64,000 nucleotides of DNA. Source: Acidobacteria bacterium AB60 (GTDB taxonomy: Bacteria; Acidobacteriota; Terriglobia; Terriglobales; Acidobacteriaceae). Where the stretch lies: positions 496,001 to 560,000 of the forward strand of contig VANK01000002.1 of assembly GCA_008682415.1 (NCBI GenBank), in the 5' to 3' direction. This document shows, piece by piece, positions 17,066 to 18,221 of the stretch. The notes beneath the pieces were generated by a model. That model worked only from the letters and a program-made list of their open reading frames with translations, was not told the DNA's origin and made no database searches. Each line of letters starts with the position of its first letter. The first letter of the stretch is position 1. The position numbers were made by a program, and so were the translations under genes.

Positions 17066-17287
17066 TCAGATTCGCTCTAAGAACTCCTCTACCGTAATGC
17101 CTGCAGTTCGGATTAGACCGCGGAGCGTTCCAGGAGCGAGTTCGGGATGTTGCGGGATAGTCAGATTGTGTCGGAGTCCAGTCTTGGTCATGACAACATG
17201 ACTACCAACCTGGCCGCGAACTTCCCAGCCGAACTTCTGAAAGGCTTTGACCGCCTCTTTGCCGGAGATGTTCGCGAGCCTTCCCAT
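17066..17287 (-). CDS. hicA: HicA family mRNA interferase toxin
   Basis: A 73-residue protein from the ATG at 17287 (MGRLANISGKEAVKAFQKFG). The longer frame to 17317 adds ten residues with no family support. It has the compact HicA double-stranded RNA-binding fold signature: SGKEAVKAFQKFGWEVRGQVGSHVV, with the catalytic His30 in GSH, then a beta strand and PQHPELAPGTLRGLIRTAGITVEEFL. HicA cleaves mRNA and tmRNA independently of translation. The HicB gene lies upstream on the same strand, the less common antitoxin-first order. Confidence 0.9.
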   Translation of the reverse strand: MGRLANISGKEAVKAFQKFGWEVRGQVGSHVVMTKTGLRHNLTIPQHPELAPGTLRGLIRTAGITVEEFLERI

Positions 17288-17372: not shown

Positions 17373-17582
17373 TCAAACTGCGACAACGACTGGCGTCTGG
17401 CCACCTGGGAGTGCCTGGGCCGCTTTCTGATCTTCGGCCCAAAGCCACGCCGTGATTGCTTCTTTGATATTCGCCAGCGCTTCCTGTTCCGTCTTTCCTT
17501 GAGAGAAGCAACCGGGCAGAGCTGGGCACTCGGCCACGATCCAGCCTTGCTCATCAGGTGTCAGGACCACGTGAAACAACAT
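17373..17582 (-). CDS. hicB: HicB-like antitoxin, short form
   Basis: A 69-residue protein with the HicB partial RNase H-like fold: FHVVLTPDEQGWIVAECPALPGCFSQGKTEQEALANIKEAITAWLW. The E-C-P-x-L-P-G-C and G-x-T-x-x-E-A-L-x-N-I-K-E-A-I blocks are diagnostic. It lacks the C-terminal ribbon-helix-helix or HTH DNA-binding domain found in longer HicB proteins, so it probably neutralises HicA by binding but may not autorepress by itself. It is the first gene of the pair; about 85 bases separate it from HicA. Confidence 0.88.
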   Translation of the reverse strand: MLFHVVLTPDEQGWIVAECPALPGCFSQGKTEQEALANIKEAITAWLWAEDQKAAQALPGGQTPVVVAV

Positions 17583-17672
17583 GGGAAGCTCCAGAACCCA
17601 AGTTTACACACAACAACAGTTGGTCACTAGCGCGAGTAAAAGTGCGGTACTCTCTAGCTGAAAGGAGCTTCC

Positions 17673-18221
17673 ATGAGGACACTGGTAGCGGCCGCCCTGC
17701 TCCTGGTTTCAGGCGCGGCCATGCTCGGCCAGCAGCCAACCGAACCGGCTCCGCTCAAGGTGGGCGAAGATGCGCCGAACTTCACCCTCACCGCGACGAC
17801 CGGCGCCAAGGTGACGCTGTCCGATTTCAGGGGCAAGAATCCTGTGGTCCTGGCCTTCTTCCCCGCCGCGTTCACCGGTGGCTGAACCAAGGAGATGACA
17901 GCGTACCAGGCTGGTATCGCAAAGTTCGAAGGCAATGACACCAAGGTTTTCGGCATCAGCGCCGACAACGTTCCCTCCCTCCGGGTCTTCGCCGACCAAT
18001 TGAAGTTGAGCTATCCCCTATTGAGCGATTTCAGCACCCGCTCCACGCTGAAGGCGTATGGCGTTCTGCGGCCGGACGGCATGGCGAACCGCGTCACCTA
18101 CGTGGTCGACAAGGACGGCAAGATCGCGTTTGTGGAGGTGGGGAACACGGCGATCGACCCGACGGCCGCTGACACGGCGTGCAGCCGGCTGGCGCACAAG
18201 GCAGCCCAAGGCAAGCCCTGA
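17673..18221 (+). CDS. Selenocysteine-containing peroxiredoxin (AhpC/TSA family), TGA read as Sec
   Basis: One 182-residue protein if the in-frame TGA at 17883-17885 is read as selenocysteine (residue 71). AAAGGAG precedes the ATG by five bases. Residues 1-20 form a signal peptide or anchor, then KVGEDAPNFTLTATTGAKVTLSDFRGKNPVVLAFFPAAFTGG, the stop-like TGA, and TKEMTAYQ. The motif PxxxTxxC, invariant for the peroxidatic cysteine of peroxiredoxins, is here P64-AAF-T68-GG-U71, so the TGA replaces exactly the catalytic Cys. The same frame continues for 111 more codons of typical peroxiredoxin sequence (VFGISADNVPSLRVFADQL, YPLLSDF, RVTYVVDKDGKI). Cys170 could be the resolving residue. It would reduce peroxides, probably in the periplasm. 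A hairpin at SECIS distance supports recoding. Treating it as two genes or a pseudogene is less likely. Selenocysteine machinery genes are not in the window. Confidence 0.85.
17886..17920 (+). promoter_or_regulatory. Candidate bacterial SECIS element
   Basis: Directly after the TGA, bases 17901-17907 (GCGTACC) pair with 17913-17920 (GGTATCGC) to give a 7-bp stem with one bulged T and the five-base loop AGGCT. The loop begins 22 bases after the TGA, inside the 16-37 base spacing known for bacterial SECIS elements, and has G at loop positions 2 and 3. This fits the requirement for a G in the first two apical positions. The SelB interaction is inference. Confidence 0.65.

Follow-up and report, generated by a model that had tools for sequence, protein, structure and literature searches.

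An AhpE-like peroxiredoxin with predicted selenocysteine at the peroxidatic position in Acidobacteria bacterium AB60

Introduction

Within the 64,000-nucleotide stretch of Acidobacteria bacterium AB60 DNA analyzed here (the window), a peroxiredoxin reading frame is interrupted by a TGA codon exactly where the peroxidatic cysteine is expected. This arrangement raises the question of whether the codon ends translation, is read as another amino acid or is decoded as selenocysteine (Sec), as the original prediction proposed. Sec peroxiredoxins with a TxxU motif are an established family (PMC1794560, PMC1088965, PMC9312934, PMC13188914, as far as their accessible text goes), and the remark in the original prediction that such bacterial enzymes are already known agrees with the listing of the family in the accessible text of PMC13188914 and PMC9312934. 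The gene adds to this family and its kind of enzyme is already known. Less ordinary here are its spread in Acidobacteriota, its predicted export, about five Sec/Cys switches in a quick tree and the truncated or Trp-like records of its relatives.

Results and Discussion

The reading frame and its in-frame TGA

Translation of the gene yielded a single frame in which the TGA at codon 71 is the sole internal stop, followed by 111 sense codons up to the terminal TGA at codon 183; the frame structure described in the original prediction was thereby reproduced in full (Table 1). The read-through product matched the Pfam family AhpC-TSA with 120.4 bits over residues 30-153 (cut-off 26), which agrees with the assignment of the parts on either side of the TGA to the AhpC/TSA fold, and scored 85.9 against Redoxin. 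The residues around codon 71 read FFPAAFTGG-TGA-TKEM. P64, T68 and position 71 fit PxxxTxxU as had been predicted, and both elements of the AhpC/TSA active-site definition (the domain and PxxxTxxC/U) are present. R123, which we take to be the Prx arginine, is invariant in a 65-row protein alignment. No promoter-like or terminator-like consensus was found at the gene. A HicA/HicB-type toxin-antitoxin pair is located upstream on the opposite strand (window positions 17069-17287 and 17376-17582; HicA_toxin 61.1 bits, HicB_lk_antitox 33.1).

Table 1. Positions of the gene, its signals and related features (window coordinates unless a locus, contig or record is given)
Feature	Location	Strand	Remarks
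AhpE-like peroxiredoxin gene	17673..18221	+	182 residues with TGA as Sec; terminal stop TGA 18219-18221
Shine-Dalgarno-like AAAGGAG	17661..17667	+	5 nt upstream of ATG; sequence inspection
Predicted N-terminal export signal	17673..17732	+	residues 1-20, no lipobox Cys; hydrophobic stretch KD 2.83
In-frame TGA, predicted Sec codon	17883..17885	+	residue 71, peroxidatic position
Internal ATG	17895..17897	+	start used by annotation for a 108-aa truncated product
SECIS-type hairpin, one bulged U (17917)	17901..17920	+	core stem 17904-17908 / 17912-17916; loop GGC 17909-17911
Cys170 codon TGC	18180..18182	+	no variation in the alignments; candidate for the resolving residue, C-terminal helix
AhpD/CMD-like frame, CPY(TGA)	L009:4645-5238	-	CMD 56.2 bits, TIGR01926 100.3 bits, both above cut-off
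Deiodinase-like frame, SYT(TGA)PPF	L009:3879-4625	-	PF00837 102.9 bits, above cut-off
Formate-dehydrogenase-like gene, ARI(TGA)HS	L211, G000:C22:456344-457081		below TIGR01591 cut-off
Trp-at-site homologs	P0002-P0008, P0010-P0012, P0014, P0042, P0078, P0084, P0110		

Nine TGA relatives chosen among the nearest were compared with the gene, and all nine comparisons gave a dN smaller than dS upstream as well as downstream of the TGA. Third codon positions vary most, upstream as well as downstream. These patterns indicate that purifying selection acts on both sides of the TGA.

Codon 71 in relatives and in database records

The best 80 of 531 relative-encoding loci from named genomes were combined with 90 from Acidobacteriota genomes, which gave 170 homologous loci including the window's own gene (L104). 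Five pairs were identical over 330 nt, and their removal left 165 distinct loci. Codon 71 is TGA in 120 of these, TGC in 33 and TGT in 12, with no other codon observed (124, 34 and 12 in all 170). TGG was absent from the 170 loci even though Trp was permitted by one of the two search patterns. A UGA where homologs carry Cys or Sec is a mark of bacterial selenoprotein genes, and it was found here in that every one of the 170 loci has TGA, TGC or TGT. Because nothing else occurs at this codon, a chance TGA can be excluded. Another sense codon in related strains, named beforehand as evidence that would speak against Sec, was likewise missing. A read error can also be excluded, since the TGA recurs in other genomes and short database proteins begin just after it.

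These short proteins were found among the 120 protein homologs listed of 2318 found, in which the residue at the site is Cys in 94, Trp in 15 and Leu in one, while ten do not cover it. All ten are 104-109 aa long, are 93-96% identical over the covered part and begin with MTAYQ, which corresponds to the first ATG after the TGA. Three carry no source label and could be the window's own protein; none of the seven sourced ones is 100% identical to it. The 15 Trp-bearing homologs are all of jgi source. Since no TGG was seen in the 170 loci and all 15 share this source, the Trp records fit a TGA read as Trp and probably result from code-4 gene calling. If so, they would mark other hidden selenoproteins. 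The expectation that automatic annotation would split the gene into two broken genes was thus borne out for the downstream piece, which is recorded alone in ten of the 120 listed homologs, but not for the pair, as the records seen were either this piece or full-length proteins with Trp (15 of the 120) and never two pieces.

Selenocysteine machinery and further TGA-interrupted genes

The source genome (6.65 Mb, 33 contigs) is rated 100% complete. Selenocysteine insertion at codon 71 would demand selA, selB, selC and selD, and the absence of selB, selC and selD had been put forward as grounds for dismissing the proposal. All four were detected above their cut-offs. The tRNA-Sec gene (selC) is located at C22:306861-306951 with 69.1 bits (gathering score 47). 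ARAGORN likewise identified it as tRNA-SeC (anticodon tca), and profile searches of the genome gave 369.7 bits for selB, 372.8 bits for selD and 491.1 bits for selA, each above the curated cut-off. The four genes are clustered within 4.6 kb of one contig, which also carries the peroxiredoxin gene at a distance of about 207 kb.

Three further redox genes of this genome are interrupted by TGA: an AhpD-like gene (CPYU), a deiodinase-like gene (SYTU) and a formate-dehydrogenase-like gene (UHS). The AhpD-like and deiodinase-like frames sit directly downstream of selB. By sequence, the former is a candidate for a further selenoprotein and the formate-dehydrogenase-like gene likely encodes another. 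The deiodinase-like frame has a hydrophobic stretch near its N-terminus and scored 193.9 against NF038285, under the cut-off of 250.

A SECIS-type hairpin downstream of the UGA

Downstream of the UGA, a hairpin of eight pairs can form, GCGUACCA-GGC-UGGUA(U)CGC, whose GGC loop lies 23 nt after the UGA. It was found in the fold starting after the UGA, with an energy of -8.7 kcal/mol (z -2.49). The bSECIS model, in the accessible part of PMC13188914, specifies a loop of 3-9 nt with a G in the first two positions, a stem of 4-16 bp, a distance of 16-37 nt from the UGA and an MFE of at most -7.5 kcal/mol. The window hairpin lies within all of these limits, with its GGC loop at 23 nt, a stem of 8 bp interrupted by one bulge and an energy of -8.7 kcal/mol. 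The four folds that include the UGA all favor another hairpin (CAGC/GCUG, loop GUACCAG). Fold stability was not unusual for the 52 nt after the UGA (z -0.17) or for wider stretches around the TGA (z -1.1 to +0.5).

Conservation was assessed in those TGA loci that have a Cys at +90 to +109. Of these 98 loci, 75 non-redundant ones remained when identity over 60 nt was kept below 90%, and one of the 75 is the window's own. A strict test for a five-pair stem and a G[GU] loop was passed by 43 of the 75 and failed by 32, compared with a mean of 1.4 and a maximum of 6 in 300 synonymous shuffles. Under a looser SECIS-like test, 58 loci passed versus 25.6 expected and 17 failed. The looser test was passed by 19 of 43 Cys loci, nearly all from other subfamilies, versus 12.9 expected, and the stem is incomplete in all four subfamily Cys loci with DNA (L027, L030, L032, L034).

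Pairing was then considered column by column in 49 of the 75 loci, which were picked by their codons at +8 and +10. Columns 25, 26 and 31 are thereby set in advance, so that the pairs 25/31 and 26/30 alone are weak as proof. In the picked loci, 95.6% of cells pair versus 88.0% with partners shuffled. Columns 24/32 are UA in 30 and CG in 19 without exception, columns 23/33 are AU in 44, UA in four and unpaired in one, and the U at column 30, which the choice of loci leaves free, is kept in 49 of 49. Across all 75 loci, 69.3% of cells are paired. Compensatory changes are few as independent events, with five pairs on the best tree, three of them on supported branches and all in the expected direction. 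Judged by the synonymous shuffles, the hairpin is conserved beyond what protein coding explains.

Subfamily TGA loci without a hairpin at +23 include L046, L048, L051, L054, L056, L059, L060, L076 and L161 among others, and those named are of a CAG-CAG-AA type. Their SECIS, if any, would be located elsewhere or belong to another class.

Co-occurrence with SelB in Acidobacteriota

SelB was detected above cut-off in 254 of 396 genomes of the phylum, and 333 contain some match to the window protein. The best-scoring 90 of these 333, the source genome included, were classified by their best match, with SelB scored as present at E < 1e-71. SelB was present in 71 of 73 TGA genomes and in 12 of 17 Cys genomes (Fisher p = 0.0023, with genomes treated as independent and relatedness not corrected), and all 17 Cys best matches belong to other peroxiredoxin subfamilies. 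The window's subfamily accounts for 60 of the 73 TGA best matches, 59 of them in genomes with SelB. The two TGA genomes with no SelB match above cut-off are G266, which is 72% complete and carries the window's subfamily, and G350, which is 93% complete in 820 contigs and carries another. None of four congeners drawn had SelB above cut-off (best E 7.5e-56), and their best match to the window protein had an E-value of 3.7e-21.

Fold, predicted export and the C-terminal cysteine

A structure model obtained with the window protein and 64 homologs reached a mean pLDDT of 88.6, and the solved structures nearest to it are S. solfataricus Bcp4 and M. tuberculosis AhpE. The model contains a helix at residues 3-16, in the N-terminal signal region, with low confidence. 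A hydrophobic N-terminus was found in 66 of the 75 TGA loci (starts by a simple rule) and in 103 of 108 full-length database proteins, as judged by a simple hydropathy test. This property makes export of the subfamily likely.

Cys170 is located in the last helix of the model. It does not vary in either of the two protein alignments, one of them of 65 rows, and a Cys occupies this place in all 120 listed homologs, so that the 94 homologs with Cys at the peroxidatic site all keep the C-terminal Cys as well. At the DNA level, 98 of 124 TGA loci have a Cys at +90 to +109, and the other 26 have either a Cys at +4 (11 loci) or no comparable Cys. The invariance of Cys170 and its place in the modeled helix suggest a resolving residue, a role to which we give an even chance.

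Comparison with known systems and history of the subfamily

The gene shares with the Sec peroxiredoxin family (TxxU; COG1225/PF00578) the AhpC/TSA fold, the PxxxTxxU motif, the in-frame UGA and the sel genes in the genome. Its product differs from the Eubacterium acidaminophilum Sec peroxiredoxin, named PrxU, in that it scored 51.3 bits against the PrxU model NF040737, far under the cut-off of 270; none of the 14 NCBIfam models listed for the product is matched above its cut-off. In TPVU-like TGA loci, a Cys at +90 to +109 is found in none of 15 and a signal-like N-terminus in none of the ten with a start found (five more have no start), whereas the window's subfamily has a Cys at about +99 and a predicted export signal. 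The WFPKAFTGGUTxEC peroxiredoxins resemble the window protein in the TGA at the peroxidatic site and in a signal-like N-terminus (10 of 11), but their second Cys is at +4 and not at about +99. This second TGA group, mostly with WFPKAFTGG(TGA)TxEC, comprises L075, L098, L172, L177, L178, L181, L183, L188-L190 and L193.

Among solved structures, the best sequence match is the 1-Cys peroxiredoxin AhpE of M. tuberculosis (87 bits), and its best-fitting chains align to the model with about 37% identity and an rmsd of 1.2-1.3 over some 152 columns. The window protein differs from AhpE in three respects: a predicted Sec replaces the peroxidatic Cys, a predicted export signal is present and Cys170 is added near the C-terminus. 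Cys homologs within the subfamily are about 55-72% identical to the window protein (BLASTP) and have Cys at the site; in the four with DNA the codon is TGC or TGT and the hairpin is incomplete.

A quick tree of 143 rows gave five TGA/Cys changes without the Trp rows and six with Trp counted as TGA, and its starred branches force at least five changes for the Cys group. The tree counts these changes without a direction, whether gain or loss of Sec. Eleven of the 12 Trp rows in the tree share a starred clade with five TGA loci, the window gene among them, and with no Cys row; the twelfth, P0110, sits among Cys rows. The window gene groups with Solibacteraceae and Terriglobia MAG loci and not with the TGA loci of its own family (L142, L147, L154, L161). 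Judging from this placement away from its family's four TGA loci, the gene may have moved between lineages.

Alternative explanations

Three alternatives deny selenocysteine at codon 71. If the TGA were a true stop, created by pseudogene formation or a sequencing error, the downstream frame would be a relic, and the annotation of close relatives does yield the downstream piece alone in ten of the 120 listed homologs. This account has very little probability in view of a TGA that recurs at exactly codon 71 in 120 of 165 distinct loci, of dN below dS downstream as well as upstream (9 of 9), of a hairpin kept beyond protein-coding expectation and of the whole Sec machinery in the genome. Translation from the internal ATG at 17895 into a 108-residue working product could draw on the open frame and on the relatives of the short product listed in databases; such a protein would have neither the peroxidatic residue nor the initial strands of the fold, yet purifying selection acts on the upstream part, which a separate ribosome-binding site serves, and this possibility is equally faint. 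Decoding of TGA as tryptophan (code 4) is suggested by the Trp in 15 of the 120 listed homologs and is just as improbable: all 15 records come from the jgi source, 11 of the 12 placed in the tree fall into the starred clade with five TGA loci and no Cys row (the twelfth among Cys rows), TGG is missing from the 170 loci despite a search pattern that allowed Trp, and TGA also terminates the same gene at 18219-18221. Moreover, a Trp residue would be unable to carry out the peroxidatic reaction.

A fourth alternative accepts Sec and concerns only the catalytic cycle. AhpE is reported to be of the 1-Cys type and to be reduced directly by a small thiol or a redoxin, and the window protein could work in the same way, with Cys170 in a structural role. 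The titles of PDB entries 1xvw and 1xxu name AhpE as a 1-Cys peroxiredoxin, AhpE is the best solved relative by sequence at 87 bits, and it is also among the top folds for the structure model. The invariance of Cys170 in both protein alignments, the Cys at that place in 120 of 120 listed homologs and the Cys at +90 to +109 in 98 of 124 TGA loci are set against it. We regard the 1-Cys type as a serious contender that falls somewhat short of an even chance.

Proposed mechanism and implications

Residue 71 is very probably selenocysteine. This decoding is inferred from the frame with its TGA, from the set of sel genes, from the conserved hairpin and from the alternation of Cys and TGA among relatives, and the central claim of the original prediction, translation as a selenoprotein, is supported. 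In the mechanism that we favor, SelB and tRNA-Sec would decode the UGA as Sec with the help of the hairpin loop 23 nt downstream, and the N-terminal signal would direct the enzyme to its predicted export. Sec71 would attack the peroxide and become a selenenic acid, Cys170 of the C-terminal helix would likely form a selenenylsulfide with Sec71, and a thioredoxin-like reductant of the envelope would restore the enzyme. As a whole, this explanation is considered highly probable, with export as a likely part of it and the resolving role of Cys170 at an even chance.

In the literature searched, neither an exported Sec peroxiredoxin from Acidobacteriota nor the present subfamily is described. Acidobacteria were credited with three selenoprotein families and four selenoproteins (PMC1794560), and three known selenoprotein genes were counted in Occallatibacter riparius of the Acidobacteriota (PMC12013277). 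As the accessible text of both papers counts these selenoproteins without naming them, the subfamily may already have been sighted before.

A wider proposal is advanced tentatively, at slightly less than an even chance: an undescribed, exported Sec peroxiredoxin subfamily that would extend across the Acidobacteriota, with an extracytoplasmic Sec71-Cys170 selenenylsulfide, at least five Sec/Cys switches and a SECIS hairpin that forces synonymous codon choice to follow the amino acids encoded within it. The codon-by-codon covariation makes this hairpin a clean SECIS for bench testing. If the reading is true, database entries present an entire branch of predicted acidobacteriotal envelope peroxidases as truncated or apparent Trp proteins, and the abundance and activity of this branch would be missed for this reason. 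As its relatives alternate between Sec and Cys in one scaffold, the subfamily would offer a natural test of what selenium gives a peroxidase.
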